The notes under the pieces were generated by a model that ran no database searches, was not told the origin of the DNA, and saw nothing but the letters and a program-made list of their open reading frames with translations. The position numbers and the translations under genes are program-made. From Siphonodentalium dalli (Eukaryota > Mollusca > Scaphopoda > Gadilida > Siphonodentaliidae), in assembly GCA_032622095.1 (NCBI GenBank), contig CP136062.1, positions 197,787,887-197,851,886 on the forward strand: a DNA stretch of 64,000 nt, in the 5' to 3' direction. Shown here one piece after another: positions 19,354 through 59,789 of this stretch; the stretch's first letter is position 1, and every line of letters starts with the position of its first letter.

Positions 19354-19390
<37 letters not shown>

Positions 19391-20462: not shown

Positions 20463-20498
<36 letters not shown>

Positions 20499-20499
20499 G

Positions 20500-32342: not shown

Positions 32343-32669
32343 CGAAAGAAACAACACACAGGAAAAAAGATCACACAACTAGAAACCAGGAAAAAAACAC
32401 AACAAATGACATATATTTAATCTGATAATCTGAAACACTGTGGAGAGGCATGCCTAGCCGATTGATTGAGTCAGGTCGACTAATCACCCTTTTGTAAGAG
32501 CTGTATGACCAAAGAGGATCATGAAGATCGATTCCTCACGTTATGCGACCGCCCTAGTATCCACATGACTCATACACCGCACCTCACGGGATGTACCTCA
32601 CGGCAAACAGAGTGCCACATCGGGGGATTCTTACCCCTCGATGTGGGGCGGTAAGCCTATTCTACACCG

Positions 32670-33100
32670 GGACCACACAGAGTATGACATTCAGTACTCA
32701 CCCTCTCTTAATTGGTATTGAGGATGCATCCCCTCTGTTAACTGGTGTTCGGTATTCGCCCCTGTTAACTTGTATTCATGGTTCACTCCGCTGTTCACTC
32801 ATATTCATGATTCACCCCTACCTTAACTGATACTTCGGGATCCGATCTCCTATATATTATCTGGTATTCAGGATACATCCCCTCTGTTAACTGGTATTCG
32901 TCATTCACCCCATATTTTAATAGGTATTCAGTTTTCACCCTCTGCATGTTAATTGGTATTCGAGATTCACCCCCACTCATTTAACTTGTATTCAGGATTC
33001 ACCCCCACTCATTTAACTTGTATTCAGGATTCATCCCCACTCATTTAACTTGTATTCAGGTTCACAAACTATGTTAACTGGTATTCAGAAGAATCCCTAT
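32670..33100. repeat. Minisatellite of about 30 bp in the left arm
   Basis: Degenerate CTGTTAACTGGTATTC units. The last three share CCCCCACTCATTTAACTTGT. The inverted partner is at 58920-59260. Confidence 0.8.
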
Positions 33101-33104
33101 ATCA

Positions 33105-34487
33105 TAAGGCCTGTTTTATACGACGTGTAATACACGTGTAACGTTAACTCGTCGTCAACACGACTTTTTAACGTTTGATTTATATGACGTGTTAACTTTA
33201 CACGTGTAATCTAGACTGGCGTCATGTAATTAATGTTAAAAATCCAACCGGCTATAAGAAAATGTGAAATATCCCAGATGTATCGGTCTCACTGATAACT
33301 CTCCGCCGAGACAAGAATATAGTTATGTAATGCCACACGGCGACCACGCGAAATTATAATTGATGACCGCCGCCGCTGATTCTTACATCTAGATTTCAGT
33401 TCAGCCCGACCAAAACAAGTTGTCATAACTCTTCTGCGCACGTGCGATCGCCCTGGGGCTCAAAATGGGGTGAAATATTATGCCATATTGTGTTCCGTTA
33501 CTCGTGTCATACCCGTCGTATAAATTGACGAACAAGTGATGAGTTACGCGTCCAGGCCAGTCCACAGGCGCTTGTGAATTTTTTTTTATATATATACTAT
33601 ATACATAGAAGGCCTGACAATCTGATGGCAAGATTGAGCAGCCATTGTTGATTCGGCCGTGTAGGAGTTAATGTGCACCGATTTTGTTCGGGTAAATGGC
33701 AAAATGTTTTATGACTTACGTTAAAAAACACATTAGTATACGAAATGTGCTACCTTGTGCCCTCTCTGCTTGAATTTTACAATATTTGGTATTACTAACT
33801 GTTGACAACGATAAAACATTGCACCTTGATCGGGAATCCATCCGTATTTCATCTTGAACCCGCAGTGAATTATTGATGTTCACCGATTGGCCGAGCTATT
33901 TCTGGATTATTTGCGGGAAATTTGAACTTACTTCCTGGTTGCAACTTCGAGCGTCCATATTTGACAGCATGTCGTTTTGTGTATCAACAAAAGTCATGTG
34001 ACATACGGAAAAAAAATAAAGAGGTATTTTTTTATTTCAACCAATCAGCGGCCAGCTACAATTCACTGTGAATATACGGACAAAATATTGACTTGTCACT
34101 TATATAAAATCATCTAAGATATCAAATACATACACTTTTGATTGGAATAAGGAAATAAGCAACATATGCAGTGGTAATCGCATATTGTACTGCATGTATA
34201 CGTAAGTTATTGTATATTTAGCCGTTTACCCGAATTAAATCGGTGCAGATTAACCCCCGCCGGCCAAGGCGGCAAACCAAATTTAAATTTGGCCGCCAGA
34301 ATGGCATACCTTTCTTTTTTTATAGTAAGTAATAAAATATTTGTTACATGTACCTGTGGGCCAGTCGTGTAATACGTCGACACGTGTAAGGACGAATTTC
34401 GACGAGTATCGTGGTTTTATACGACGTGTAATACACGATCAATTGCCGACTCTCTTATTTCACCAGGAAAATAGCCAGTTATACACG
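33105..34487. mobile_element. Left-arm-specific insertion of 1.38 kb
   Basis: The right arm reads straight through (its reverse complement CCCTATATCC joins CTAATTGACAG). The inserted DNA starts CATAAGGCCTGTTTTATACG and ends GTTATACACGTGT. Direct copies of TTTTATACGACGTGTAATAC occur near both ends (about 33113 and 34414). No ORF of a known family was seen. A TTAA-flanked MITE is nested inside. Confidence 0.7.
33668..34253. mobile_element. TTAA-flanked MITE nested in the left-arm insertion
   Basis: TTAA at 33668-33671 and 34250-34253 flank inverted ends of about 30 bp: TGTGCACCGATTTTGTTCGG with CGAATTAAATCGGTGCAGA, continuing GTAAA(T/C)GGC. It differs from the 5310 family in terminal sequence. 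No ORF. Confidence 0.65.
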
Positions 34488-34489
34488 TG

Positions 34490-34830
34490 TCTAATTGACA
34501 GTCCGTATTCACCCTATGTTATCTAGTATCTAGTATTCACCCCTGTGTTAGCTGGTATTCAGTATTCACCCTTCTGATAACTGATATTAAGTATTGACCC
34601 CTCTGTTAACTGATGTTAAGTATTGACCCCTCTGTTAACTGATTTTAAGTATTTACCACCTCTGTTAACTGATGTTAATTATTCACCCCCTCTGTTAAGT
34701 GATATTAAATATTCACCACCCTATGTTAACTGATGTTAAGTATTCACCCCCAGAGGGGTCAATACTTAATATCAGTTATCAGAAGGGTGAATATTAAATA
34801 TTCACCCCCTCTGTTAACTGGTATTCAGTA
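34490..34830. repeat. Minisatellite of about 30 bp with a local inversion
   Basis: TATTCACCCC/CTCTGTTAACTGAT units. At about 34750-34790 the repeats switch strand (GAGGGGTCAATACTTAATAT), a small internal inversion. Confidence 0.8.
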
Positions 34831-35622
34831 TTTATGGAGCAACACCCTCCATGACAGTAGAATTCCTACATTTGATAAATAGGTGGACACGTACTTTGCA
34901 AAAAACTGATTTTCCAGAATCCTCGTTAACGTTTTTATTTCTCAGATGCGAAACGAGTTTATAATCCAGTGACGGTTTGAAACATGAACTTGTGCTCCTT
35001 TTTGTTTCATACGGACATTATGTGGTAGAGACAGATTTATTTACGCCATAGAGTTACATGGTCTATTTCCAGCTGATTGTTCCATATTTGAATGGACACG
35101 CCTGCATAGCAACATGTGTGTTCATTGGGTTGTCTTTATTGTGATATATGGCTGTATGATGTTATATTATGCAATTAAACATTGCTGACCTAACGGACCG
35201 AAACAGAAATGATATTTCAACCTGTCAAATGTACTAACATAATTGTTTTTAAGTTTGTTTTCTACATTGTTCTAATTGTTCAGATTTTATGTACAATCAA
35301 TATAAGGATATTGAAATTCAACAGTGTTCGCCGGATAGATCCAGAAGACTTATGTGTTGAAAATGTCTTGCATTTTGTGTCTCGAATTATTGGAAACGCG
35401 TGTCTGGCCCTTATACATGCGATTTTAAATATGAAGATACAAAGTATCAAAATTTATCGATAGAGAGTTCTATAAATATGTTATACGAAGTTTAGTTGCC
35501 GTAGAAATACTTATTCAAGTCATAGAAATTTTTCTTCGGCAAGAATAAAAAATTCGTTCCTTGTAGGTCTATTCGTTGTTCGTTGCAAAAGAAATCTGCA
35601 AGATCGCCATGACGATATATAT

Positions 35623-36049
35623 GGTTATAATACACCAAATACAAATTAGTAGAGTGACTTCTCATGGGACCCCAAGCTAGGATCAGCATAAAAACAATCC
35701 TGGCAGCTGAATTGTCAATGACAGATGGATGAAAAGTGCACGAAAAAATTCACAAACGTGTTTCCCGACGAGAAACATCAAATATAGCCACATAGTGAAC
35801 GGTTACGGCTGTCAAATTGCTGAATAATTTATGGGAGGGGTTGGTGTTTTTTTTCGATGTCATTTTTTCTCCATTTTAAGGGTAGTGTGACGCAGTACGT
35901 TGACAAGTACTTTTGGACACATTTTCGTGTGTTTAAAATGACGTTCTTCAATTTTTGATACTCATGCAGAGTCAAATCTGTCCTGCGAATACAGGCCAGC
36001 GGGATTTGTTAACACTGAGGCCTATGCAAATCATTTGGTGTTTGTAACC
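35623..36049. mobile_element. MITE specific to the left arm
   Basis: The inverted ends are GGTTATAATACACCAAAT and, at the right, ATTTGGTGTTTGTAACC. ATAT flanks both sides. The right arm has an uninterrupted site (about 57151-57167, reverse complement CTACATATATGATGC). The 427-bp unit has no supported ORF. Confidence 0.75.
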
Positions 36050-37561: not shown

Positions 37562-39116
37562 GGAGTTTGATAAGTTTATTATGCCTTAGCTGCAAATCAA
37601 TACAGAACATAAGTGCATTAGTACATGAACAAAACATATTTACATATATATAATACAAATAGATATATACAAGAAGTGACCCCCGATTTGCCTATATTAT
37701 ATTATTTGTTTGTTTGTTTGTTTGTCTTTTTGGCCACGCTCATTCGCCTTTTGTGGTGTCAAATAAAATGCCGTCCGATTTAGTCAATTTTGTCAAGCTG
37801 GGTTTTCCCCTTTGCATGAAGCTGTATCCTGTATATTTAGCATCGATTGTGTGTATTACATGGGGTAATTTCTTAGCGATAACTTTAGAAAAACACATAC
37901 TTTCTTAAGGAGGCTCATATTTTCCACTGTTACTAGCCCACAAAATTTTGTCAGGTTAGGCGACTCCCAGTAGTACGTAGGTATATATTTAGCCCTCAGA
38001 GTTTGAAATTCTTTACAAATTAACACATGGTGGTATTCATCTCCTAATCCTTCCCTACATGCCCTGCATATTCTTTTCTCTTTAACCTGGTCATGCCATC
38101 GTCCTGACTCTATAGATAGTCTGTGGTTAGCTGTTCTAATCTTAACAAGATACTCAGATAATGTTCGCGGTAACTCAGTGAGGTATTTGCTAAAATTCAA
38201 TTTTGGTTTAATTTGTCGATATAGTAAACCCCGAGATGAATTCCCTATTTCAATTCGCCAACTGTCTTCAAACTGTTCAATCAAAACTGTTTTAACTTTC
38301 CTTATTTCCGATTTCGACAAGGGTGTTTGTGCGGTGAATGTTTCACTTAAACCACTTTCATTCATTATACATCTAATATTTTCTATCCATCTTATCTTTC
38401 CCGCGAATGAATCTGTGTCACTGCATGCGAACACAAGTTTATATATGTCTTTCGCTAATATAGACCCCTCTTGTGAAACTAACTTAGACCAATAAGAAAT
38501 ATTTCTGCATTTAATACCAATATTCATCGGGTATCTCCCCAACTCACCATAAACCATATAACTTGGCGTGCTTGATTTCATTCCCAGTAATATTTTACAG
38601 AATTTCAAGTGAACATATTCTATGTCTTTGATTAGTTCGAATCCCCACACTTCGCTCCCATATAACAAAATTGGAGCGATTTTATGTTCGAAGAGTATCA
38701 GCATGATATCAATTGGGAGGTCTAATTTTCTGGTCTTATCAAAAAGGCCGTACATGGCTTTTATCGCAACCTCTTTATTTCTTTTTATGGCTCTACAGAA
38801 CCGACCATTAAAAAAGAACTTCACTCCTAGATAATTAAATTCCTTGACGGTTTCAAGGACATTTTCATTGAAGGAGAATTTTGGTGGATTTTTTGGGAAT
38901 TGTTTGCAGAATATAGTAACTTTAGATTTATTAATATTGACATGTAATTTCCATGCTTCTGAATAATCTTCAAATGCCCGGAGTGCGCGTGTCATATCTC
39001 CTTCATTTTCTGTGAGTATTACAGTATCATCGGCGTATAACAAGCATAATAATTTTACATAGCACCCTATGTTTTTTAACATAATTTCATCCAAATATTT
39101 AAGGCTATTTATTGTT
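37562..39116 (-). mobile_element. 5'-truncated non-LTR retrotransposon specific to the left arm
   Basis: The site is empty in the right arm (55689-55712). TGTT flanks both sides (37558-37561 and 39113-39116) and occurs once in the empty site, so it is a 4-bp target duplication or microhomology. On the minus strand the 3' end is TCAAACTCCAA, 13 nt after AATAAA (37575-37580), without a poly(A) tail. The 5' end cuts into the reverse transcriptase domain. Confidence 0.85.
37856..39112 (-). pseudogene. LINE reverse transcriptase C-terminal part (5' truncated)
   Basis: About 419 codons stay open from the truncation point to a TAA. The frame enters as INSLKYLDEIM just before the catalytic YADD box (LLYADDTVIL), then has an FNYLGVKF thumb-type motif. 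After a long linker comes a C-terminal HX(n)C-rich module: IRTANHRLSIESGRWHDQ, then CRACREGLGDEYHHVLIC. This layout is typical of the RT and C-terminal zinc-finger region of APE-type LINEs. The N-terminal endonuclease and most RT motifs are missing, so it cannot act alone. The intact frame suggests a fairly young insertion. The clade is unresolved. Confidence 0.85.
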
Positions 39117-39527
39117 ACATGTGTGCATAAGTGGTTCGCACGTGTCCTTTAATCCCATTGACAACTTGTATCGTAATACGTATTGGCAATAACTATGTTT
39201 AAGCGATATAGAATGAATAAAAACACCCAGCATCGAAGGGAACAACTAATATACAATATATACAAGTCTAGGCAAAAAGTTATGAACGAATCTTCGCTCG
39301 TAGCTTTGCAGTCTTATATATAAATGAGGCTAAAAATGCAAGAACTAGTTGTATGCCGCTTTTGTGCTCCGCTACCCTGTCCCGAGTCGTATACAACTGT
39401 AAAAAGACACATATACCCGGCAGTCGTATAACTCGTAAGTTCATAGTATTAATTTGGTTGTACAATTGGGAATAGCGGCTAATTTCGTACAAGTACAACT
39501 GCCCAGAGCTTTATATCGCAGGTCCCC

Positions 39528-39612: not shown

Positions 39613-40465
39613 TCTTTATATCACATGGTCCTGGTCGGCTATGGATTTGGCTATGGACCTATCAGTTAAAAACTCTTCTCAGTCTCAATGTTTTAATTGC
39701 TCAGCAAGTACGACGTCGTGACCATTCTCAGATACAGTAAATTATTGATGGGTGGGTTTCTTTCTAAATGAGAACACTTATGAAATATCCTGAATCAAGA
39801 AAAACTAAGTGTCCTATCATGACCTTCGGATATGATACATGTATTACGGCTATATAAACTGCTCTTTTTGAAAAAAGTTCTAGTTTACAGAAGTTCTTCA
39901 AAAGTTGGCACCTGAAAATAGCAAAATTTTAAATATTGCTCATGCCATAATAGTATTGCACACGGGGTTATAATTATCAACGATTTGATGGTTCCTAAAT
40001 ATTGAATCACAATAATTGCCTGTACCAAATTTCAAAATACTTACAAACAGATTTTTAGAAAATTATCTTCATTGATAATAACAGTTATTATGAAAACACC
40101 AATATACAATACATTATTAAGCTTGCACATATCTTGTTCTTATTTATCCCTAATTGGGTACAATAACTGCGAGAATAAAGAGATTTTGATTGTAAAAGCA
40201 TAAACTTCAAACTTCGGTCGCTATTGAATACCGACGGTCAGCTGATTCAAATGGTCGCCGGACGTTTTCGTTGTGCTGCCAAAACTGGGCCCTGTACATA
40301 AACTGCACTTGTATACAACTTCTGAATGCGCGGGATGGCTACTTACGGGCGTGTGAGTCTAGCGTCTAGGGCCCTGTTTAAGGGTTAAAATTCCGTTCAA
40401 ATTACACGTTCGATCTATATTAAACTACCAAGATGTAGACACCCACGGTCACGTTATATATGATA

Positions 40466-41150
40466 CTAGCAGGTTAGCCCGCCACTGGCGTGGTTCGTCT
40501 CATGGCTTTGCAATTGCAACAGCTTCCGAGACACGTATGCTCTGTTCGAAAAAGCAATTGCAACAGCTTCCGAGACACGTATGCTGCACCTAGGTGTAAA
40601 ATTTCGTCGAAATCCGCCAGTTTTACCAGATTTGACCTTGAATTTATCATTTTCAAGGTCAAGGTCAGATCGGGGTCACAATTTAACCCGTCCATGACAC
40701 TTTCTGCACACAAGTAGCCCTAGGTAGCAAGTTTGAGCTCAATCGGTTCGAGTCTATAAAGGACACAGACATATATATCATGTGTGGGTATATACCCGTT
40801 TCAAGGTGAAGATTACATCAGGCGGAAAAAGTGACCCGATGAAAATCTCCCCCGTTCCTAGGAAGCCCTTAGTACGTAAGAATCACACAACACGCTCATG
40901 TCTGGATACAGTCATGCTCACGCCCGGACCCAGACGTAACAATTACATTACACGCATACGCTCTTTATCAACGACACTGTGGATACGAACGCTCTTTAAC
41001 TATCAACGCGATTAAACCCACAGTGCCGTTTTGTGTGACTGGGAGTGAAGAACGGGTGCTCGGAGCTTCTCCAAAATGCCGCGACGACCATTCCCGCGAG
41101 TTTTTACCATTAGATGGGAAGTTTGGTCTCGATCGGTGCAGCCGTTTTCG

Positions 41151-41204
<54 letters not shown>
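40466..41204 (-). mobile_element. Helitron-like element C1 (family C)
   Basis: On the minus strand the 3' end is the hairpin CGCCAGTGGCG, then GGCTAACCTG and CTAG before a host T. The body has TGACCTTGAAAATGATCAA/TCAAGGTCAAATC modules, like family A, plus unique segments. The 5' end runs into a (TA)n tract that stops at the CTAG of B5. The inner edge of the left duplication arm lies here; its counterpart is C2. Confidence 0.75.
41157..41204. repeat. (TA)n microsatellite
   Basis: A TA run at the 5' edge of element C1. The inverted-duplication match ends at it. Confidence 0.95.
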
Positions 41205-41205
<1 letters not shown>

Positions 41206-41644
41206 TAGCCGATGAGCCCGACGTTGTCCGGGCTATTCTAAAACCAAATTTCAAGTCGTTAGCTCTACCCAGCCCGACGTTGTCCGGGCTATTAAAAAAA
41301 CAAATTTCAAGTCGATAGCTCTACCCGTTTCCGAGATCTGGTCTGTGCATGCGCGAAGCGGGCGTCGCACGGGCTCGGCGACCCGATAAAATTCGTACTC
41401 GGGGCAAGATACATTCACATACCAAATTTCAAGTCGATAGCTCCACCCGTTTCCGAGATCTCGTCTGCGCATGCGCTGCACGGGCGTCGCACGGGCTCGC
41501 CAATACGACAACGACCACCGCCTGGTCAAACTACACACACATACCAAGTTTCGTCCCGATCGGTCGAGAATCGTAGATTTGTATTAATGACAGACAAACA
41601 GACAGACAAACAGACAGACAGAGGTCTTCAAAATATATATGAGA
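41205..41644 (-). mobile_element. Helitron-like element B5
   Basis: Standard B ends on the minus strand. It has two 122-bp units plus a duplicated terminal segment (AGCCCGACGTTGTCCGGGCT twice, at about 41214 and 41271), the same arrangement seen in B2. Confidence 0.8.
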
Positions 41645-41655
41645 TATATATAATA

Positions 41656-42201
41656 CTAGCCGATGAGCCCGACGTTGTCCGGGCTATTCAAATTTCAAGT
41701 CAATAGCTCCACCCATTTGCGAGATCTGGTCTGCGCATGCGATAGCTCTACCCGTTTCCCAGATCTGGTCTGCGCATGCGCGAAGCTGGTGTCGCACGGG
41801 CTCGGTGACCCGATAAAATTCGTATCCGGGGCAAGATACATTCACATAGCAAATTTCAAGTCGATAGCTCCACCCGTTTCCGAGATCTGGTCTGCGCATG
41901 CGCGAAGCTGGCGTCGCACGGGCTCGGCGATGCGATAGAATTCGTATCCGGGGCAAGATACATTCACATAGCAAATTTCAAGTCGATAGCTCCACCCGTT
42001 TCCGAGATCTCGTCTGCGCATGCGCGAAGCGGGCGCCGCACGGGCTCGCCAATACGACAACGTTCACCGCCCGGTCAAACTACACACACGTACCAAGTTT
42101 CGTCCCGATCGGTCGAGAATCGTAGATTTGTATAAATGACAGACAAACAAACAAACAAACAAACATACATACAGACAGAGGTCTTCAAAATATATATGAG
42201 A
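41656..42201 (-). mobile_element. Helitron-like element B6
   Basis: B-family ends on the minus strand, separated from B5 by 11 bp of TA-rich DNA. Three full 122-bp units plus one shortened unit near 41700-41735. It abuts B7 exactly. Confidence 0.8.
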
Positions 42202-42651
42202 CTAGCCGATGAGCCCGACGTTGTCCGGGCTATTCAAAAACAAAATTTCAAGTAGATAGCTCTACCCGTTTCCGAGATCTGGTCTGCGCATGCGCGAAGC
42301 TGGCGTCGCACGGACTCGGCGACCCGATAAAATTCGTATCGGGGGCAAGATACATTCACATAGCAAATTTCAAGTCGATAGCTCCACCCGTTTCCGAGAT
42401 CTCGTCTGCGCATGCGCGAAGCTGGTGTCGCACGGGCTCGGCGACCCGATAAAATTCGTATCGGGGGCAAGATACATTCACATAGCAAATTTCAAGTCGA
42501 TAGCTCCACCCGTTTCCGAGATCTCGTCTGCGCATGCGCGAAGCGGGCGCCGCACGGGCTCGCCAATACGACAACGTTCACCGCCTGGTCAAACTACACA
42601 CACGTACCAAGTTTCGTCCCGATCGGTCGAGAATCGTAGATTTGTATTAAT

Positions 42652-42687
<36 letters not shown>

Positions 42688-42727
42688 AACAAACATACAG
42701 ACAGAGGTCTTCAAAATATATATGAGA
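42202..42727 (-). mobile_element. Helitron-like element B7
   Basis: CTAG end joined to B6; start TCTCATATATATTTTGAAG at the right edge. Three 122-bp units and an ACAG/ACAA simple tract. The 204-residue open frame over it is a repeat artefact. Confidence 0.8.
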
Positions 42728-43055
42728 TATATACACATACACACATATATATATATTTATATACGAAGTCTCAAAATATATAGTAGATGTAGTGGTACAC
42801 CTATAATCTCTATATCTCTTATGTACTTTCGGGATTGTGCTCATTTTGTTCCAGGAACCTGTGACCAAAAGCGATTTTGTCTCCGTCCGATGAGTACGCC
42901 ATAATAACTTATATAGTTATAATGGAATGAGTTCCCACATTATTTTCAGCGTGTATAAATGAGATCTGGAGAGGGTGTTATGCATAAGTGGCTGGCACGC
43001 ATCATCCAATCCCAATACCAACTTGTATCATAATACGCATTGGTAGTCAATATGT

Positions 43056-43430
43056 TTAACCCTTTACCCAACAAACCGGCCAAAAACGGCCAAATAAAGC
43101 TGCAACAGCCTAAATTATCTTGGGTCTGTCTCAATAAAACCATACAAATATGGATATCATTGGAACCGGCTCATTAACCACATTGTGATGGTTACAGTTA
43201 TGCCCTGTGCCAATGCATTCTCTTATATATGCGAGTCGACCATAGGTCGCCTCGCATATATAAGAGAATGCATTGGCCTAAAAAAAAAATTCTTACATTC
43301 TTTAACAATTTTATAATTTTTAATGTGTTAAGCCAATGCATTCTCTTAAATATGCGAGGCGACCTATGGTCGACTCGCATATATAAGAGAATGCATTGGC
43401 ACAGGACCGTTCTGTTGGCTAAAGGGTTAA
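43056..43430. mobile_element. piggyBac-like MITE, copy 4 (complete, with empty sites in the window)
   Basis: TTAA at 43056-43059 and 43427-43430 flank inverted CCCTTTACCCAACA ends (one base change at the right: TGTTGGCTAAAGGG). It has two 68-bp palindromes. The paralogous sites at 39199-39202 (left arm) and 55611-55614 (right arm) hold a single TTAA with the same flanks, confirming target duplication of TTAA. Confidence 0.9.
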
Positions 43431-44269: not shown

Positions 44270-46205
44270 TTTTTTTTTTTTTTTAATTTATTCATATTTT
44301 TGGTTACATTATACTCATAGTATTACATATTTTTATGAGTTTTATACATGAATACAAAATACAATACAATACAAAAATGTATAGATATTTAGCTTTATTT
44401 ACTTACTATTATTAATATCAATTTGTTAATATCATTTTTTGTTTTGTTCATATGAATCCTCTTCATCTTGCAATGCCAATTCAGATAATTTTAGCTTGGT
44501 CTCAATATTCTTTGATGTGTATCATCAGCCAATTTAACGTGGTTGGGTGTTGAGTTTCAACTTTCTGAAAGATTTCAGATAGTGAAATTTTCTTCATGGG
44601 ACGGTACATGTATGTGTACAGTCTATGTAGGATTTGCTATGTATATAGCGCAACACTTTATTTTTAAATAGTAAATGGAATTAAATTGTTTGTTAAAAGG
44701 CTAATATATATTGATTTTGGTCTAAGAAAACCACATGGTACTGCAGAGGTTTGGCTTTTTTTATTTTAGTTTTGTTTGTGTTATTATTTATTGAGTATAG
44801 TAATTTTTTTTCTTCTTTTTTGTATTTATCTGTGTTTTATTATACAAGGTTGCTGTTAATGAGCCGAAGGACACTGTCCCATTTTATACCTAAGAGTTTA
44901 GCTGTATGTTTGTTCCATTTACGGCTTGTTTCTCAATTTTGTATTCCTGTGAAATATACTGGTTGGCACCTTTTAATGAGAGCTCGGTCATTTTGAATCG
45001 AGTTATGTAAATATATCTTTTTGTTAGAAGAATTATATTATTTATTGCAAGAGAATGCTACTCTTTAGTACAGCCAAATATTATTTCTTCTTTTTTCAAG
45101 GGTTGGTCTAGCTCACATTTTTTAACAGTAATTTCGAGAAATGGTGCCATATTGGTTTTACTTTGTTGCATTCTACTAACAGTTATTGAATATTTTCTTG
45201 TTCTTCCCCACAAAAAGTACAAGCATTGCTTGTTACTATTTTACATTTTCTATAAAGACATTGGTAACTAACATATGGTTTATTTGGTACTGGAATGCTT
45301 GTAATTTAGTATTTGATGTTGTTTTAAATGTCCTTTTATATATTTGTTTCCAGTCGCTTTTTGAAAAGGTTTGGTCTAATTTATAGTTCCATCCAATTTG
45401 TGCACTGGGTTTATTTGGGAACAAAAGTTTCACAAATTCCCAATATAGAAAATGATTGAGGTTTTCCTTGTGTGCAATGGTCTGTAGGATCTTATTGACT
45501 TTTGGTTCATCAAGTTTGTGTTTTATATGTTTAAAGTCTTGTCGCCAGGCTGAGGGGATGGATAGCACCACGCCCTGTAAGGTTAAGTAATAAATTTTTA
45601 AGCCATGTATTTGAAAGAATTCCTCATTATTCATAAATGTGCCATCATCTTTTAGAATATCATTTATATATAATATATGTCTATCAGTCCATGATTGAAA
45701 GTAAATCGGTTTATACTGCCTTTTTATAAGGCTATTGTGAAATATTGGTTGGCTCATGTACTCGTCAGTGGTTTCTGGTTCTTTTTGTAATAAGGCATAG
45801 GCAAATATGACATCTTTCCAAAAAGGGTTGAAATGTTTTGCTAAAGTGATAAGACTGGCTTTATTTAAATTCAGTATTGTTGTGCCACCATATTTATTAA
45901 TTTTTTCCAGAAGGATCATTTTCCATTCTGAATAGTTAAGAGGGTCCATTATTTTTTTTAGCCATGTCACCTTAAGTGATTTCAAAAAGCATTTTACTTC
46001 TGGTAGCTTCAGTCCTCCATTATATTTTGAATGAGAGTCTCTCTTTTTAACCTATCCCTTTTACTATTCCAAAAAAAATTATAAAATATGTTTTGAATTT
46101 CTTTAATTAGAGAACTGGGTGTGTTATGTAGTACAGTCATGATTGGTATGAGGATAGGTAGTGCTAACATTTTAATTACTGTTATTTTTAGAGAAAAGTC
46201 CAATA
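44270..46205 (-). pseudogene. L1/Tx1-like LINE 3' part with poly(A) tail, frameshifted
   Basis: On the minus strand, KITVIKMLALPILIPI (about 46150-46190), a type of motif found just after the RT domain in L1/Tx1-type ORF2, leads to RLKRETLIQNIMED. A frame break at about 46005 follows, then a 249-codon stretch with SLKVTWLKKIMDP, NPFWKDVIFAYALL and QINHMLVTN. After another break comes CTFCGEEQENIQ, the usual Cys motif near the ORF2 C-terminus. Stops accumulate after that. A poly-T run at 44270-44284 is the poly(A) tail on the minus strand. The 5' end is truncated near 46205. Several frameshifts make it dead. Confidence 0.75.
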
Positions 46206-50680: not shown

Positions 50681-50817
50681 TGTTCTGAGGGAAACGTGCG
50701 TATACGTCCGTCCGTGCGTCCGTCAACAGTTTCCCTCATGCAGCAACACATGGCAATAGCTCGAACTTTACTTTGTCAAGTTGAGCAAAAAACAAATCTG
50801 TTCGATGTCAGGTTTTT

Positions 50818-51452
50818 ATACGCCCGTTTGAACAAAACGGTCGTATTATGTAAATGGGTTGTCCGTCCGTCGTCCGTCATCCGTCACTGTCCGCTTTTGG
50901 TTTCCGGATGATAACTTTAGATTGAATCGAGTGAACTGAACCAAATTTGGTTTGTTTGACCTGCCGGCTCCCGGGCGAACCCGCTCGCGTCGGTTTCCGG
51001 CGCCGGGGCAGTCGTTCGCCCGCGGGGCGGTTTACCTCGACGCAGATCAAGTTCGAATATGGGTTTCGTCCGCATTATTTTGACTGAGTTATGCCCCTTT
51101 TTCGACTTAGAATTTACCTGATTTGCGATTTCCGGATGATAACTTTAGATTGAATCGAGTGAACTGAACCAAATCTGTTATATATACATATCAAGTTCAA
51201 ATATGGGTCCTGTCTACATGATTTTGCAGGTCAAGTTTGAATTTGAGTCCGATCCGACCATATTTGCCAGAGGTATAGGATTGTTTTGTCTGAAAATAGC
51301 CGAAAATAAATATTTTAAATTGTGTTTTCGGTTTTTAGTCAAAATTACCACACTTGAAGTTATTGAGTTTTATTTTTGTTACTATTTCGTCTTAAGTCAA
51401 AGGTTTCAAACAAAACCTTGCCCCACTCTACTCCAGAAACGGGCGTATTATG
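50818..51452. mobile_element. DNA element with TACGCCCGTTT ends
   Basis: The left end TATACGCCCGTTTG and the right end AAACGGGCGTATTATG are inverted. Inside, a GTCCGTCCGT tract and two copies of TTTCCGGATGATAACTTTAG (about 50898 and 51128) are followed by ATCAAGTTCRAATATGGGT. The first copy carries an extra GC-rich block (50959-51045). No ORF. Similar repeats occur in marine invertebrate genomes (from memory, unverified). Confidence 0.6.
50959..51045. other. GC-rich block inside the TACGCCCGTTT element
   Basis: About 87 bases, roughly 70% GC, rich in CpG and small palindromes (CCGGCTCCCGGGCG, CGCCGGGGC, CGCCCGCGGGGCG). It separates GAACTGAACCAAAT from ATCAAGTTCGAATATG, which are about 11 bp apart in the second internal copy. 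Confidence 0.6.
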
Positions 51453-51785
51453 CCACCCCCCGACGGCGTGCACTTGTTTTGGCTGTTTTCGAGATGAGTT
51501 CGCGGGATAACTCATTAGTTTAGTAACTTGCTGATATCTTTAAAACATATGGACTTCCGGTATGACACGTGAGCGGTAAGGACGTTTTTTGGACCACGAG
51601 CTCCGGAAAAACATCATTTCAAATGATTGAAACGCAAACCAGCGTATACAAACAGATAACTAATGTCGGAAAATAGTCAAGAACATTAGTCAAGTCGGCA
51701 GTATTTCGAGACGACTAGTAAATACGAGCAGTTAGCTAATTTTAAAACGAACTCACGAAAATAGGTGACAAGAATCGGGGTGAAA

Positions 51786-52603
51786 ATGGGAACGAGACGA
51801 AACCAAACCGAAAAGAATAAGGACAAAGACAAGGAAAAAGACAAGGAAAACATGTACCAATGTAAGTCATTTGAGGACATTACCAAGTGCTTCCAAAATC
51901 CTCATACTTCAATCATTGGGCAAATAGGTGAAGTTGAAATCAAGGTGGAAAATCTGACTAAAAAGGTGATTGACATTGAAAAAGTAACCGATGAATCGAC
52001 AAAGCGAGTCTCCAAAATTGAAGACAGGATGGAGGAATATGAACAACGTTTCGCTGAAATAGAATCGACATACGAGCAGAAACTTACTGAAATGGAAAAT
52101 AAACTGAGTGAAACTAAAATTTCAGACGAATTGGTTGAAGATAAACTACAAGAATTAGATAATTCATTGACAAAGCTAGACCTGTGGGGACGCAAATGGA
52201 ACGTTATAGTTAAAGGTGTTATTGGTAGCAAACACGAATTAACATCAGAAACTTTAAAATTAGTGTTGTCATCCTTCAAAAAATCTCTCAGAATTTCAAC
52301 AAATCGAGTAGAAGAGATGTCAGGTTTTGCGGCTTGTCATAGACTGCCTTCAGGTAAACCAGATACCCCAGATATAATAATAAGATTCTTGAATCTCGAC
52401 GATAGAGACTTAGTGCTGGAAGCAGCTAAAAAAAACTCAAAGCGGGGACAGGATATGGCATATCGGTTGACCTGCCACCAAACATTGGGAAACTTCGTTC
52501 ACAACTTTTAAAACAAAGAAGTGAACTGCCTGATGACGAGAAGAAAAAAACGAAACTAATGTACCTCAAGAAACAACCAAGGCTTATCTTAAACTGGGAA
52601 TAA
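51786..52603 (+). pseudogene. LINE ORF1 (coiled coil plus RRM-like), one frameshift
   Basis: The ATG at 51786 (context AAAATGGGA) starts a Lys/Asp/Glu-rich N-terminus. A long coiled coil follows (about residues 45-135, heptads such as VEIKVENLTKKVIDIEK). Then comes an RRM-like domain: DLWGRKWNVIVKGV, SGFAACHRLPSGK and PDIIIRFLNLDDRDLVLEAA. This is the plan of L1/Tx1-type ORF1 proteins, RNA-binding chaperones that trimerise by the coiled coil. The frame breaks near 52440. In the next frame TGYGISVDLPPNIGKLRSQL and LMYLKKQPRLILNWE continue to a TAA at 52601-52603, so one indel restores the rest of the domain. No ORF2 start was recognised directly downstream. Confidence 0.8.
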
Positions 52604-53318
52604 AATGACTTCAGTGAAATGACTTTTGTAGTTTGTTATATTTCTCCACATACAGGTTCATGTTAATGGGAAAGGTTTATTACACATTACATTTTTTCTT
52701 TTCATTTTGTTTTGAACAGTCAAGACAAAAGAATACTTTAAATAGGGTCTGCTGGATGTGGAGAAGAGGGGCCGGAACCACGGCAATATATGTACTAAGA
52801 AAAATAATTTATTTATAACAAATCTGACATTGGTGTGCAGAAGTGATGAAAAGATTAACAAAGACCTTGGTCTAAATATTGCACAAAAACTGAATTTACC
52901 TTTACATATATCTCAGGATTTTGAATTTTAAATGTTGATATTGAGTAAGCGGTTTTAATTAGAAGATATAACCCATAATCAGTCTTCGTCATGCAAACAT
53001 ATTCCCAAATTAACAGTATTTATCACAATAAAACCAGGTCCCCCTAATGTCGGTCTGTAACACTGTCAGATATACACTACCGATAATTTAATTGCATATA
53101 TCTATTAAAATATTCATTCCGCGCAAAACTATCGACAGTTGGTGAATAATAGTGTCACAGAGATCACACATGACAGGAAAAATATATAAATTTGCATGTT
53201 AAATTCACTTAAAAAACACGCTAAACATTAGGGGGACACACAAAAAGTCGCCCTAATGTAAAAGTCGCCCTAATGTGGGTTATTTACACACAAATGTCTC
53301 CCTAATGTGGCTTCCGCG

Positions 53319-53320
<2 letters not shown>
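52604..53320. other. Possible LINE 3' flank, then short CCCTAATGT motif cluster
   Basis: No endonuclease or RT motif was seen. Between 53041 and 53310 the word CCCTAATGT (or its complement) occurs five times, twice as GTCGCCCTAATGT in direct succession. Confidence 0.5.
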
Positions 53321-53321
<1 letters not shown>

Positions 53322-53379
<58 letters not shown>

Positions 53380-54073
53380 TTTATAGAATCGAAAACGGCT
53401 GCACCGATCGAGACCAAACTTCCCATCTAATGGTAAAAACTCGCGGGAATGGTCGTCGCGGCATTTTGGAGAAGCTCCGAGCACCCGTTCTTCACTCCCA
53501 GTCACACAAAACGGCACTGTGGGTTTAATCGCGTTGATAGTTAAAGAGCGTTCGTATCCGCAGTGTCGTTGATAAAGAGCGTATGCGTGTAATGTAATTG
53601 TTACGTCTGGGTCCGGGCGTGAGCATGACTGTATCCAGACATGAGCGTGTTGTGTGATTCTTACGTACTTAGGGCTTCCTAGGAACGGGGGAGATTTTCA
53701 TCGGGTCACTTTTCCGCCCGATGTAATCTTCACCTTGAAACGGGTATATACCCACAAATGATATATATGCGTGTGTCCTTTATAGACTCGAACCGATTGA
53801 GCTCAAACTTGCTACCTAGGGATACTTTTGTGCGGAAAGTGTCACGGACGGGTTAAATTGTGACCCCGATCTGACCTTGACCTTGAAAATGATCAATTCA
53901 AGGTCAAATCTGGTAAAACTGGCGGATTTCGACGAAATTTTACACCTAGGTGCAGCATACGTGTCTCCGAAGCTGTTGCAATTGCTTTTTTGAACAGAGC
54001 ATACGTGTCTCGGAAGCTGTTGCAATTGCAAAGCCATGAGACGAACCACGCCAGTGGCGGGCTAACCTGCTAG
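53322..54073 (+). mobile_element. Helitron-like element C2 (family C)
   Basis: Inverted partner of C1: (TA)n, then AATCGAAAACGGCTGCACCG, a body with TGACCTTGACCTTGAAAATG, and the 3' end hairpin CGCCAGTGGCG, GGCTAACCTG and CTAG before T. It forms the inner end of the right duplication arm. Confidence 0.75.
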
Positions 54074-54430
54074 TATCATATATAACGTGACCGTGGGTGT
54101 CTACACCTTGGTAGTTTAATATAGACCGAACGTGTAATTTGAACGGAATTTTAACCCTGAAACAGGGCCCTAGACGCTAGACTCACAAGCCCGTAAGTAG
54201 CCATCCCACACACTCAGAAGTTGTATACAAGTGCAGTTTATGTACAGGGCCCAGTTTTGGCAGCACAACGAAAACGTCCGGCGACCATTTGAATCAGCTG
54301 ACCGTCGGTATTCAATAGCGACCGAAGTTTGAATTTTATGCTTTTACAATCAAAATCTCTTTATTCTCGCAGTTATTGTACCCAATTAGGGATAAATAAG
54401 AACAAGATATTTGCAAGCTTTATAATGTAT

Positions 54431-54731
54431 TTTATTACATATCTATCAACGTAATTCGCATGATTGCACGAGTTTCCAGGCGTGTGATAATTCTCAGAAT
54501 CGCACTAGTGCAATCTGTCGACGGAACTATTTCATTCAGTGTTAAAACTCAATTAAATTCACATTTTCTGTACCGGAGATGTACGATTGTGAGTCAATTT
54601 ACTATGATACGGAGATATGTAATAAAAATAGAACCGCATGAGTGTCTGGATTTTGACGTAATTATCGCACGAGATTTGTTGGCGGAGCGATACCTCGAGT
54701 GCGGGACGCAATATACATGCGGTTCTATCTA
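54431..54731. mobile_element. 301-bp insertion specific to the right arm, flanked by TGTAT
   Basis: TGTAT flanks both sides (54426-54430 and 54732-54736). Removing 54431-54731 gives exactly the left-arm sequence AATGTATTGTATATTGG (reverse complement at about 40110-40126). The ends have no perfect inverted repeat, but CGCATG and GCACGAG/CTCGAGTGC occur in inverted order near them. Confidence 0.65.
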
Positions 54732-55199
54732 TGTATATTGGTGTTTTCATAATAACTGTTATTATCAATGAAGATAATTTTCTAAAAATCTGTTTGTAAG
54801 TATTTTGAAATTTGGTACAGGCAATTATTGTGATTCAATATTTAGGAACCATCAAATCGTTGATAATTATAACCCCGTGTGCAATACTATTATGGCATGA
54901 GCAATATTTAAAATTTTGCTATTTTCAGGTGCCAACTTTTGAAGAACTTCTGTAAACTAGAACTTTTTTCAAAAAGAGCAGTTTATATAGCCGTAATACA
55001 TGTATCATATCCGAAGGTCATGAGAGGACACTTAGTGGGTGTTCTCATTTAGAAAGAAACCCACCCATCAATAATTTACTGTATCTGAGAATGGTCATGT
55101 CGTACTTGCTGAGCAATTAAAACATTGAGACTGAGAAGAGTTTTAACTGATAGGTCCATAGCCAAATCCATAGCCGACCAGGACCATGTGATATAAAGC

Positions 55200-55293
55200 G
55201 CAGGTCCACAGAACAAAAATTTACACCACCCCAATAGTACTTAATAGGAATAAGTACTATTGGGGTGGGGTCAATTTTTGTTCTGGGGACCTG
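55200..55293. repeat. Right-arm copy of the 85-bp hairpin
   Basis: GCAGGTCCACAGAACAAAAA pairs with TTTTTGTTCTGGGGACCTG. Partner of 39528-39612. Confidence 0.85.
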
Positions 55294-56559
55294 TGATATA
55301 AAGCTCTGGGCAGTTGTACTTGTACGAAATTAGCCGCTATTCCCAATTGTACAACCAAATTAATACTATGAACTTACGAGTTATACGACTGCCGGGTATA
55401 TGTGTCTTTTTACAGTTGTATACGACTCGGGACAGGGGTAGCGGAGTACAAAAGCGGCATACAACTAGTTCTTGCATTTTTAGCCTCATTTATATATAAG
55501 ACTGCAAAGCTACGAGCGAAGATTCGTTCATAACTTTTTGCCTAGACTTGTATATATTGTATATTAGTTGTTCACTTCGATGCTGGGTGTTTTTATTCAT
55601 TCTATATCGCTTAAACATAGTTATTGCCAATACGTATTACGATACAAGTTGTCAATGGGATTAAAGGACACGTGCGAACCACTTATGCATACATGTAACA
55701 TCCTCACCCAATCACCTATTTGTGTCTGAATCTGTATCATTTTAGCACCGGAGCCTTTCGAATTGTTTGCGCCTTTATTATTAAAGTGATATGAAACACT
55801 CCAGTAGGGTGACCACATATAAATGGTGAATAATCTTCCTCAAAGAGGTTATATTTTACAAATATTAATTTGACAACACACACCATCATTCTTATATATT
55901 AATGAAATCCAGAAACTCTCGATCATTTTCGTAAGTTTATCGCCGATAGTTACGTCCCGAATCTAGACGTAAATATTTACATTTGAGCGTAGTTCGGACG
56001 ATGTTTTCTTTGGAGTGGTACGGTCAATTTGCTTCACATTTTCGGCTATGATGTTGGAATGCTACATTCTCCCAGTTGGAATGGTGCCTGAATACTAACT
56101 TACCAGTTTCATATACCGGAACAAGTCCATAGTTTGGGAACCCATTATATTATACCGGTTAGTATGGCGTACTCATCGGACGGAGATAAAGTCGCTTGTG
56201 GTCACCCTACATCATCGCCAACTTTCGAAAGCCAAAACATATCAAATTTGGCTCGATACATGCATGTGCGTAATTCGACTTGTGGATCGGAGAAATAAAT
56301 ATACATGCTCGGTGCGAGACATCGATGCCGAAAACACCTCAATATAATCTAGTGATCCGCGGTTAGCTAAACACTCACGCTCGTGTATAGTCTGCAATTC
56401 CCCGACCCCGAGTCCAAGTCTAACTCAGTACTACATGTATATAACACTAGTAAGCTATACCTGGACGGGTATTGTCGAGTAAGCCTATACAGCGGTACGT
56501 ACGATTTATACATGGCTTCTTATATACGCGGGTACTATAACATGCCACGAAACTCCACT

Positions 56560-56900
56560 GATGTAGGCTAACGTCCGTAGAGATCACATTACACCAGTAC
56601 AAAACCGTGGACATTTTTGAAGTTTTGACAGGGAACCTTATGATATGATGTTGAAAAAATAACGCGGGGACTATATTTCTTAGTTATTATCTGTTCCTTA
56701 ATAACGTACTAAGGTGAACTCGAAATTGTTTTTTCGACTTTATAAGGTTTCCTGTCAAAACTTCGAAAAAGTTCCAAGGTTTTGTGTACTCGGGTGGAAT
56801 ATGATCTCTAAGGGCGTTAGCCAGAGTCGAGATTCATGGCATGATCTAGCACAGGTGTACCGTGTATATTGGCAAGCCCATAAATAGCCGCCCGCGCACT
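56560..56900. repeat. Inner palindrome of the right arm
   Basis: GTTTTGACAGGGAACCTTAT (about 56623) faces ATAAGGTTTCCTGTCAAAAC (about 56743). Counterpart of 36310-36760. Confidence 0.75.
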
Positions 56901-58109
56901 CAAGTTGTATTTGCGCTGCGTGTTCCTTGGCTGACAAATTAGACTGTATGTTATCATATCTTTCAAGTGCAAGTGAAACTATACTACAATCGTCGCAAAA
57001 AGACACGTTCAAAAGACAACCTTGGCGTCATTGTGTCTGCTTCAAGGGTACATCAGCAAATATGGATTCGATGTGACATGCAGGGAATCAGGTTACATCC
57101 TAGAGAAGTATAATGCTACACATGTCTATAGTTGGGATCAATACATCGTTGCATCATATATGTAGTCATGGCGATCTTGCAGATTTGTTTTGAAACGAAT
57201 AACGAATGGACCTACAAGGAACGATCTTTTTTTCCTTGCCGAAGAAAACCTTTCTAATTTCTATGACTTGAATAAGTATTTCTACGGCAACTAAACTTCG
57301 TATAAAATATTTACAGAACTCTCTATCGATAAATTTTGATAATTTGTTATTATGGTGTGTAACATAGGAGAGGATATCTTCATATTTCAAATCGCATGTA
57401 ATGGATGTATAAGGGCCAGACACGCGTTTCAATAATTCGAGGCAAAAAATGCAAGACATTTTCAACAAAGAAGTTTTTTGGATCTATCCGGCGAACACTG
57501 TTGAATTTCACATATCCTTATACTGATTGTACATAAAATCTGAACAATTAGAACTATGTAGAAAAAAATTATGTTAGTACATTTGACAGGTTGAAATATA
57601 ATTTCTTTTTTGGCCCGTTAGGTACCCAGACCTCCTAAAATAATTAATAATTTAACAACAATCATGTAGCTCATTGTCTTGACAACGAGATGAGGCTTTA
57701 TTTGAATCATAATAATTACAGCAATGTTTAATTGCATAATATAACATCATACAGCCATATATCACAATAAAGAATAGTGTCTACACATATATCAGCCCAA
57801 TGAACACACATGTTGCTATGCAGACTTGTTCATTCAAATATGGAACAATCAGCTGGAAATAGACCATGTAACTCTATGGCGTAAATAAATCTGTCTATAC
57901 CACATAATCTCCGTATGAAACAAAAAAGAGCATAAGTTCATGTTTCAAACCGTCATTGGACTATAAACTCGTTTCGCATCTGAGAAATTAAAACGTTAAC
58001 GAGGATTCTGGAAAATCATTTTTTTGCAAAGTAGGTGTCCACCTATTTATCTGCGTAAACAGATACACTGAACAAAACCCCGAAAATGTAGGAATTCTAC
58101 TGTCATGGA

Positions 58110-58400
58110 GGGTGTTGCTCCATAAATACTGAATACCAGTTAACAGAGGGGGTGAATACTTAACATCAGTTAACATAGGGTGGTGAATATTTAATATAAC
58201 TTAACAGAGGGGGTGAATACTTAACATCAGTTAACAGAGGTGGTAAATACTTAAAATCAGTTAACAGAGGGGTCAATACTTAACATCAGTTAACAGAGGG
58301 GTCAATACTTAATATCAGTTATCAGAAGGGTGCCAGCTAACACAGGGGTGAATACTAGATACCAGATAACATAGGGTGAATATGGACTGTCAATTAGGAT
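58110..58400. repeat. Minisatellite of about 30 bp, right arm
   Basis: CAGTTAACAGAGGGGTGAATACTTAA-type units, inverted relative to 34490-34830. Confidence 0.8.
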
Positions 58401-58437
58401 ATAGGGATTCTTCTGAATACCAGTTAAAGGCACGTGA

Positions 58438-58903
58438 GGCCTTAATTGTCGAAAATATTCATATTTGTTCCAATCACCGTAAACAGAAAAACATTAAAAC
58501 GCATACAGTTTCGTTCATATATACCATGACCATCGCGTAAACAGCATGTTATCACAAAGACCTACTATATTTTACCTAAGCAAGAGCCTGATTGTGTTAC
58601 AGAAGACAGCACAATGCTACTGGCTAATCACACACAAATGGCATAAACGCTCTTTATTAGTTCCATATCAGGAATTCACCAACAAAGAACGCTCTTTATG
58701 TTTACCATCATAATATAAACAAACACCAGAAAAGTAACTTTTTATACTTTTGTTTACATAACAATGGTCAAACAGATGACAATACCATACTGTTTATGCG
58801 ATATTTCTTATTTGTATACGGACAAAGTCTGTCTACATTTTGACGGGTGTAAATATTTTCACAGGATACCCACCGCCAAGGCCAACCGTACCTTTAACAG
58901 AGT
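58438..58903. mobile_element. TTAA-inserted element specific to the right arm
   Basis: TTAA at 58434-58437 and 58904-58907 flank a 466-bp unit starting AGGCACGTGAGG and ending CCGTACCT. AGGYACG is the short inverted end. The left arm has one TTAA at 33074-33077 with the same flanks. It has no hairpin like the 5310 family. A fragment like its right end lies near 30928. Confidence 0.8.
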
Positions 58904-58919
58904 TTGTGAACCTGAATAC

Positions 58920-59260
58920 AAGTTAAATGAGTGAGGGTGAATTCTGAATACCAGTTAACATAGGGGTACATTTTGCCTATCAGTTAACGGAGGGGGTGAA
59001 TCTCGAATACCAATTAACATGCAGATGGTGAAAACTGAATACCTATTAAAATATGGGGTGAATGACGAATACCAGTTAACAGAGGGAATGTATAGGAGAT
59101 CGGAGTACCAGTTAAGACAGGGGTGAATCATGAATATGAGTGAACAGCGGAGTGAACCATGAATACAAGTTAACAGGGGCGAATACCGAATACCAGTTAA
59201 CAGAGGGGATGCATCCTCAATACCAATTAAGAGAGGGGGTGAGTACTGAATGTCATACTC
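58920..59260. repeat. Minisatellite of about 30 bp, right arm outer part
   Basis: GAATACCAGTTAACAGAGGG-type units; partner of 32670-33060. Confidence 0.8.
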
Positions 59261-59789
59261 TGTGTGGTCCCGGTGTAGAATAGGCTTACCGCCCCACAGC
59301 GAGGGGTAATAATCCCCTGACGTGGCACTCTGTTTGCCGTGAGGTATATCCCGTGAGGTGCGGTGTATGAGTGGATACTAGGGCGGTCGTATAACGTGAG
59401 GAATCGATCTTCATGAACCTCTTTGGTCATACAGCTCTTACAAAAGGGTGATTAGTCGACCTGACTCAATCAATCGGCTAGGCATGCCTCTCCACAGTGT
59501 TTCAGATTATCAGATTAAATATATGTCATTTGTTGTGTTTTTTTCCTGGTTTCTAGTTGTGTGATCTTTTTTCCTGTGTGTTGTTTCTTTCGTGTCATGT
59601 CTCTTTGAATTTCGTCTTCATGACTGTTAAATGTTTCAATCTTGTAATGTTCAAACCTGTCTCGCTGTGGGGAAGTATCGGGAGGCTGCTATATGCAGTG
59701 GCTAAACGGATCACCGCTTCAGCTTTGGCCCGACCATAATTCGAAGTCCGAGGCGGCTGCTGGGCTAGTTGTCGATTATTTGCTTTTCA

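Follow-up and report, generated by a model that had tools for sequence, protein, structure and literature searches.

Several described systems resemble parts of the locus studied here. The palindromes of mammalian sex chromosomes undergo gene conversion from arm to arm (PMC8981503). Insertion into (TA)n microsatellites is described for plant elements: MuTAnT of Medicago is Mutator-like, 0.2–4.9 kb long and bounded by terminal inverted repeats (PMC4486113), and SaTar of guayule and rice, likewise Mutator-like with terminal inverted repeats, forms arrays, its guayule copies measuring 0.4–1.7 kb (PMC5907723). Micron and TAFT are named alongside these two (PMC4486113, PMC5907723). Among giant elements, Teratorn is of the piggyBac type, targets TTAA and carries herpesvirus genes (PMC6431247, PMC10175614). 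The endogenous nimaviruses of sesarmid crabs insert into (AT/TA)n repeats, measure 265–285 kb and carry viral genes, a Ginger2-like integrase and a 46-bp terminal inverted repeat (PMC10871703). Here and in the comparisons below, we draw on excerpts of these papers.

We analysed 64,000 nucleotides of the scaphopod Siphonodentalium dalli (the window; GCA_032622095.1, contig CP136062.1, positions 197,787,887–197,851,886), which hold a large inverted duplication. The duplication is real, and it is part of a locally triplicated, rearranging stretch of chromosome. In itself it is an ordinary kind of structure. The mobile part of the locus is not the arms but a transposon of ~40 kb, here called G, that lies beside TA repeats and of which the window retains only the tip.

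In line with the original prediction of about 5.4 kb of shared sequence, comparison of the window with itself gave six collinear reverse-complement blocks, with 5,386 bp common to both arms. With gaps counted, identity is 97.5% (53333–54435 / 41204–40104), 96.0% (54732–55700 / 40108–39113), 91.4% (55697–57159 / 37561–36050), 82.2% (57155–57623 / 35623–35188), 81.7% (57719–58397 / 35187–34491) and 90.3% (58894–59596 / 33077–32339) from the inner to the outer end. The sums of paired coordinates drift through indels as predicted, in discrete steps, starting at 94.5–94.8 k next to the spacer and reaching 92.0 k at the outer end, and the spacer between the arms is 12.1 kb long and gap-free. The outer end itself had been placed too early, at 59592: homology of the right arm with L2, the left arm of a second unit, continues through a MITE, which begins with what we take to be a piggyBac-like end, and L1 lacks that stretch. 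The 700-bp element in the innermost part of the arms occurs in at least 31 places outside the cluster (85–94% identity). A Pfam scan of the six frames of the right arm (53301–60500) found no family at E 0.01, and the arm was thus rejected as a gene. The one left-arm open reading frame sent to domain search (37859–39148) is LINE-derived, with an RVT_1 domain. No Rfam matches or tRNAs were found within the window.

Each arm also carries insertions of its own (Table 1; L1–L3 and R1–R3 are the left and right arms of units 1–3, unit 1 being that of the window). Four of the insertions predicted as private to one arm were confirmed as present, namely the 301-bp and ~0.47-kb ones on the right and the LINE-derived 1.55-kb and ~1.4-kb ones on the left. 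Some indels are common to all left or all right arms, as expected from the predicted separate evolution of the arms, which indicates that left and right had separated by the time of the amplification. The ~0.47-kb element is of one repeat family with two parts of G, namely the inverted repeat next to the transposase gene (85%) and a unit of the left array (90.6%).

Table 1. Features of the arms, their insertions and the spacer, in window coordinates.
Feature	Position	Strand	Observation
MITE remnant, truncated outer end of L1	32240..32342	.	98% to another MITE copy; junction read
Left arm L1	32339..41204	-	Collinear minus-strand matches to 53333-59596
~1.4-kb left segment	33078..34490	-	Without counterpart in R1
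~0.44-kb stretch	35624..36049	-	In L1, L2, L3; missing from R1, R2, R3
LINE-derived 1.55-kb insertion (RVT_1)	37562..39112	-	L1 only
(TA)n tract, inner end of L1	41155..41204	.	Sequence read
Helitron-like element, 122-bp tandem repeats	41205..42727	-	In L1, not L2; hairpin and CTAG end at TA tract
F, arm-contiguous sequence in L2	42730..44269	+	Second, inverted copy in unit 2
LINE 3' fragment	44270..46189	-	Dispersed matches; longer LINE in unit 2
Fragment with ORF1-like frame	51555..52910	+	Read as 5' part of same LINE kind, opposite orientation
Remnant of G, last ~0.42 kb	52906..53321	+	99.5% to L002 over 435 bp
(TA)n tract, inner end of R1, beside G remnant	53322..53378	.	Sequence read
Right arm R1	53333..60476	+	Homologous to L1 as far as 59596 and to sister copy L2 as far as 60476
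700-bp dispersed element, innermost arm part	53385..54084	.	Left copy about 40455-41154
~0.3-kb (301-bp) insertion	54436..54731	+	In R1, R2, R3; missing from L1, L2, L3
~355-bp dispersed repeat within arm core	55774..56142	.	85-88%, 33/40 scored places among matches listed
95-bp stretch	57624..57718	+	In R1, R2, R3; missing from L1, L2, L3
0.47-kb right-arm element	58424..58893	+	TTAA near both ends
MITE, outer end of right arm	60076..60476	.	Begins TTAACCCTTT; self-comparison, L2 comparison, end read

The original prediction was of a single pair of arms. However, the genome search shows three such inverted pairs on one chromosome, all inside a 330-kb stretch (C2:197.82–198.15 Mb), of which the window contains one. 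The right flank is triplicated as well, with copies 97–98% alike to the window. In units 2 and 3 the spacer of the window is inverted and accompanied by a direct part copy; L3, R3 and unit 3 were read in part. The copies are low in number, confined to one locus and highly identical, with inverted arms, as in segmental duplications.

Divergence between left and right arms forms a mosaic. Fixed left/right differences number 2–7 per kb in the inner and outer parts versus 30–50 in the middle. For a middle block whose limits were chosen after viewing identities in 300-bp bins, this amounts to 70 of 1,573 sites, compared to 11 of 3,273 elsewhere (p = 4e-24), and left-private differences are not elevated there (27/1,573 vs 95/3,273). 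The sharp borders between similar and older diverged stretches are best explained by gene conversion between the arms. The same pattern would be left by the capture of two haplotypes, if the duplication joined haplotypes that differed strongly only in the middle. L1, L2 and the right arms are about equally distant from each other in the inner and outer parts, and hence the inverted duplication may be young, even as young as the amplification. Yet, a block of ~3–5% fixed differences would have to be confined between flanks of 0.2–0.7%, which is possible but less direct. We regard the two-haplotype explanation as the strongest of the alternatives considered here, though an unlikely one, and prefer gene conversion.

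An alternative explanation for the cluster as a whole might be that the tandem units are, wholly or partly, an assembly artefact that placed diverged haplotypes end to end. L2 and L3 are 99.8% alike over 4.3 kb, and per 300-bp bin the right arms are 98–100% identical, versus mostly 95–99% for L1/L2. Identity as high as that of L2/L3 and the right arms lies within the range of allelic divergence of a polymorphic invertebrate. Against an artefact, the copies number three and not two, unit 1 differs in structure from units 2 and 3, and the 270 kb joined around the window contain no Ns. Moreover, an artefact would leave unexplained why inverted arms with lineage-specific indels occur inside one unit. 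We consider it slightly less probable than the capture of two haplotypes. The uneven identities between units, which a single amplification would not produce, also count against the course of events proposed below.

The inner boundaries of the arms lead to G. In L2, the arm is followed by a short TA tract and then by F; in unit 2, G interrupts that same TA sequence, which is found in part beside the second F copy and in part beside the right arm. Hence, G sits in a TA tract of which L2 holds the empty paralogous site. In each of the other units G has both its ends, at distances of 37.3 and 38.6 kb, and the remnant in the window is an exact right end (C2:197841184 in the genome listing). Genome-wide there are 137 exact right ends, 112 of them followed by ACATATA, with ATATA beginning at only 0.64% of positions in the 270 kb. 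All 11 left ends read lie directly behind TA runs of 10–90 bp, and TA-rich simple repeats adjoin these as well as all 17 right ends read. The outermost bases of G form no long inverted repeat by eye, and a target duplication, 8–11 bp long in the plant Mutator-like elements, would be unreadable inside TA repeats. Our results point to G as a young family of elements of ~40 kb in TA microsatellites. G might instead consist of small TA-targeted elements that came together by chance, like the SaTar arrays of plants, since its leftmost ~10 kb is made up of arrayed, related units that carry the terminal motif. This is very unlikely, because a 6.9-kb interior stretch is collinear in 23 of 23 scored places (96–100% identity and full or nearly full length in 16, of which 14 outside the cluster; in parts in 7 more) and the ends pair far beyond chance: among the matches listed, 23 of 38 left ends have a partner at 16–85 kb (median 39 kb), versus 0.14 expected. 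The remaining 15 left ends are without a partner among the matches listed, which cover 100 of the 137 right ends, and these count against a single large element as the best explanation.

A piggyBac-type transposase gene lies within G. DDE_Tnp_1_7 was found in three pieces (E 1.5e-20, 3.4e-20 and 5.4e-29), and no open frame spans the region in any of the three G copies read. It was the only domain detected in the 24 kb of one copy that were scanned, between the left array and the last ~1 kb. A late insertion of the gene into one G copy was rejected, because the 6.9-kb stretch that carries it is collinear across copies. Given the TTAA-flanked inverted repeats around the transposase, it may be an old element nested in the ancestor of the G family. 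More speculatively, and we think doubtfully, G may represent an undescribed class of giant animal transposons that are mostly non-coding. Their piggyBac-derived machinery would have shifted from TTAA to (TA)n microsatellites and would act in trans on units of ~40 kb, for which TA tracts would be safe places to land and whose arrival would give rise to large inversions and deletions.

Both inner ends of the arms had been predicted to stop at a Helitron-like element and a TA tract. This holds for the left end, where we take the adjoining element to be Helitron-like by its hairpin and CTAG end, an assignment made on general criteria; the right end meets a (TA)n tract and the end of G, which is unrelated. 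A Helitron-type end thus occurs at the inner end of L1 only, the outer ends lying at the MITE, and L2 lacks the element, so that a Helitron was rejected as the origin of both inner ends. The arm had been proposed to be possibly mobile or Helitron-captured, but such a unit, inserted twice in opposite orientations, is highly improbable. The Helitron-like element beside L1 and two small dispersed repeats inside the arm speak for it. Against it, a search with the core alone located the core, among the matches listed, nowhere outside the C2 cluster (all 33 matches scored elsewhere cover no more than the ~355-bp repeat), the Helitron-like element is missing in L2, and the right arms meet a different element, G.

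We consider it likely that the locus passed through an inverted duplication, the insertion of G, amplification with conversion, and finally an inversion and a deletion in unit 1. An inverted duplication at one locus would have included the MITE, the core, the 700-bp element, the TA tract, F and the 3' part of the LINE, after which the arms diverged. G (~37 kb) would then have entered the right arm at its TA tract, parting F from the core there, and the locus would have been amplified to three tandem units. Left and right arms may have exchanged sequence in their inner and outer parts by gene conversion. The simplest account of the G copy of the window is an inversion between inverted F/LINE copies, followed by a deletion of ~44 kb with a 3-bp overlap that would have taken most of G and left the spacer. 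The junction between LINE and G end shares CAT with the sequences of units 2 and 3.

Compared to the excerpts on known systems, the locus resembles mammalian palindromes in its inverted arms and the apparent exchange between them. However, its arms share 5.4–7 kb, the right arm is without a Pfam family, and an unconverted middle is kept. Like MuTAnT and SaTar, G inserts in (TA)n microsatellites, and like SaTar it is partly arrayed. In contrast to these plant elements, G occurs in an animal, spans 16–85 kb between its ends and showed no Mutator-type domain in 18 frames of the 24 of ~37 kb scanned in one copy. With Teratorn it shares giant size and a piggyBac-type transposase, but G lies beside TA tracts and not TTAA, its transposase frame is broken, and the same 24 kb held no viral domain. 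Crab nimaviruses, likewise giant animal elements inserting in (AT/TA)n repeats, were the only fit in the literature examined on giant TA-targeting animal elements; they differ from G in that the 24 of ~37 kb scanned in one G copy showed neither an integrase nor a viral domain. In these sources, (TA)n targeting is described in endogenous viruses of crabs for giant elements and in plants for small ones. The present locus holds the empty, inserted and deleted states of a giant transposon side by side, which makes the movement of very large DNA units, and microsatellite targeting as a route to host tolerance, testable.

The comparison of the window with itself and of arm with arm by blast confirmed the large inverted duplication as six collinear inverted blocks with 5,386 bp of shared sequence between the left arm L1 and the right arm R1. 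Block identity, from inner to outer and with gaps counted, was 97.5, 96.0, 91.4, 82.2, 81.7 and 90.3%. The window occupies C2:197787887-197851886 in a genome of 2.23 Gb on 9 contigs, and the 270 kb joined around it contained no Ns. On the outer side the duplication ends in a MITE, of which L1 retains a remnant, and the alignment of R1 with L2, the left arm of a second unit, continues to window 60476.

Among the best 40 candidates scored, a genome search with the right arm returned three inverted pairs (L1/R1, L2/R2 and L3/R3, the arms of units 1, 2 and 3), all within C2:197.82-198.15 Mb, with spacers of 12.1, ~54 and ~56 kb. Beyond this cluster, the matches were mostly to a dispersed 700-bp element that makes up the innermost part of the arm and is present in at least 31 places outside the cluster. 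A search with the arm core only (window 54740-57150) found the same six arms at 7 of the 40 scored places (L1 as two pieces), and at the remaining 33 only a ~355-bp dispersed repeat within the core. Weak partial matches of this repeat and of another stretch elsewhere in 260 kb had 72–82% identity. This composition of the best core matches speaks strongly against the original suggestion that the arm might be mobile or captured by a Helitron; judged from its matches, the arm is neither single-copy nor dispersed. The 3.5 kb flanking the right arm on its outside is likewise present three times, at 97–98% identity to the window, and the homology of L1 and L2 extends outward to window 27363 (tested from 24114), so that the inverted pair forms part of a tandem triplication. 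Outside the window, the same contig carries a second, fresh inverted duplication, whose 202-aa open frame had no Pfam match. The region of the window's receptor-like frame had no second copy of at least 600 bp in the 260 kb compared.

Coordinates of features in the window (plain numbers) and on contig C2
Feature	Position	Description
Left arm L1	32339-41204	
Spacer	41205-53332	
Right arm R1	53333-59596	
Dispersed repeat inside arm core (~355 bp)	55774-56142	at least 33 places genome-wide, 85–88%
MITE marking outer end of inverted duplication	60076-60476	start TTAACCCTTT
Further MITEs of this family	5310-5710, 15912-16140, 16209-16629, 43049-43430	inverted ends
Elements with ~122-/~130-bp tandem repeats	8001-10750, 18988-20541, 29117-30390, 41205-42727	Helitron-like where read; several adjoin long TA tracts
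LINE fragments, opposite orientation	44270-46189, 51555-52910	3' part, 5' part
Remnant of G	52906-53321	
Open frame	13123-14430 (-)	436 codons; rhodopsin-family GPCR domain PF00001, E 5e-23
Second inverted duplication	C2:197899369-197914333	5.9-kb and 1.0-kb blocks, 99.6–99.7%; ~1.1-kb spacer
LINE of unit 2	C2:197942000-197950000	minus strand; apparently full-length
G in unit 2	C2:197957774-197995088	

In a joint alignment of R1, R2, L1, L2 and parts of R3 and L3, insertions of ~300 bp at 54436 and 95 bp at 57624 were common to all right arms and one of ~445 bp to all left arms, while a 1,555-bp LINE-derived insertion was confined to L1, and a 1.9-kb insertion in L2 was found in part in L3. 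These side-specific insertions bear out the separate evolution of the arms, and indicate that left and right arms parted before the locus was amplified. Counting substitutions only, in 300-bp bins, right arms were 98–100% identical to each other, L2 and L3 mostly 99.5–100% (one bin 96.7%), and L1 and L2 mostly 95–99% (one bin 93.5%, disregarding a poorly aligned bin where L1 is truncated).

The differences between the sides are unevenly distributed. Positions at which the left arms L1 and L2 share one state and the right arms R1 and R2 another numbered 70/1,573 in 56300-58100 vs 11/3,273 elsewhere (p = 4e-24), with limits set after viewing the alignment and the minisatellite at 58100-58894 left out. 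Left-private differences showed no rise in the middle (27/1,573 vs 95/3,273). The likeliest explanation of this mosaic is gene conversion between the arms in their inner and outer parts, the middle being older, unconverted and indel-bearing. Because L1, L2 and the right arms are roughly equidistant in the inner and outer parts, a young inverted duplication that captured two haplotypes could likewise account for the pattern.

Both inner ends had been placed at a Helitron-like element and a TA tract. The TA tract indeed terminates both arms, and the Helitron-like element applies to L1 only. In L2, the core passes through a short TA tract into F, the sequence that continues from the arm (window 42730-44269). 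In L1, TA tract and F are separated by a Helitron-like element that contains 122-bp repeats; on the minus strand this element has a hairpin and CTAG end directly ahead of the tract, which we take to be the mark of a Helitron. In R1, R2 and R3 the tract is followed by a sequence Q, and unit 2 has a second, inverted copy of F that ends in the same TA sequence and is followed by a sequence P. With core, TA and F contiguous in L2, and P and Q behind the same TA sequence, L2 is the empty-site paralogue, and P and Q are the two ends of one insertion in the TA tract, a giant element here called G.

All 40 scored candidates for Q, its own place included, matched at 97–100% on all nine contigs; 39 of them aligned along 1,444 bp or more of the 1,445-bp query, the last along 1,407 bp. 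Interior segments of G were also dispersed; a 6.9-kb segment occurred at 96–100%, complete or nearly so, in 16 places, which include units 2 and 3, and in parts in 7 more. Segment order was the same in the copies compared by coordinates (C1:75.9, C2:34.8, C4:272.4 and C8:154.2 Mb). The exact right end occurred 137 times genome-wide (reversed control, 0), directly followed by ACATATA in 112. Right ends read outside the window lay at an uninterrupted TA run of at least 11 bp in 13 of 17 cases and at a shorter interrupted tract in 4, and all 11 left ends read adjoined TA runs of 10–90 bp; two of these right ends and one left end belong to the local units. Flanks past the tracts were unrelated, except for matches of 37–92 bp on the right-hand side and a single 242-bp match (83%) on the left. 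A same-strand downstream right end was found at 16–85 kb (median 39 kb) for 23 of the 38 full left ends listed (expected 0.14), two of these pairs being units 2 and 3, one duplicated insertion. The pairing used 100 of the 137 exact right ends and two others, with C8 and C9 nearly absent, so the true number of left ends without a partner would be 15 at most. G is a young dispersed family of ~16–85-kb elements in (TA)n microsatellites, with a broken piggyBac-type transposase gene.

In unit 2, the left ~10 kb of G consists of related units in an array, each ~0.9 kb where the array is most regular; the motif CCTTAGGGAGAC occurs there 17 times, counting both strands. In the 24 kb of one copy scanned in 18 frames, the only Pfam family found was DDE_Tnp_1_7, a piggyBac-type transposase. 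Leaving introns out of account, no single open frame crossed the 1.42-kb transposase region in three of three copies, the longest frames having 217, 242 and 141 codons. TTAA and inverted repeats border the gene, and these inverted repeats belong to one repeat family with the array units and the right-arm element at 58424-58893. G would be moved by a transposase acting in trans.

Units 2 and 3 contain the window spacer inverted and repeat its first part in direct orientation. The unit 2 LINE has an RVT_1 frame, an ORF1-like frame and a third frame, taken by eye for an endonuclease, with no family match; the window retains a 3' and a 5' part of this LINE as two fragments facing opposite ways. 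In the window, the junction between LINE fragment and the last 0.42 kb of G (~52906-52918) shows a 3-bp overlap, CAT, relative to units 2 and 3. The window order may have come about by an inversion between the inverted copies of F/LINE and a later deletion of ~44.5 kb (unit-2 lengths).

Inverted segmental duplications with conversion are of a known kind. No earlier description of G was found in searches of open-access papers, and the word 'microsatellite' is absent from a giant-element review (PMC6431247). In plants, (TA)n targeting is known from small elements (PMC4486113, PMC5907723), and endogenous nimaviruses of sesarmid crabs, at 265–285 kb, combine (TA)n targeting with a Ginger2-like integrase (PMC10871703). 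G resembles both in its target, but their enzymes were not found in the 24 kb scanned. Compared to Teratorn, G is without TTAA ends and herpesvirus genes were not found in the same 24 kb, yet both have a piggyBac-type transposase.
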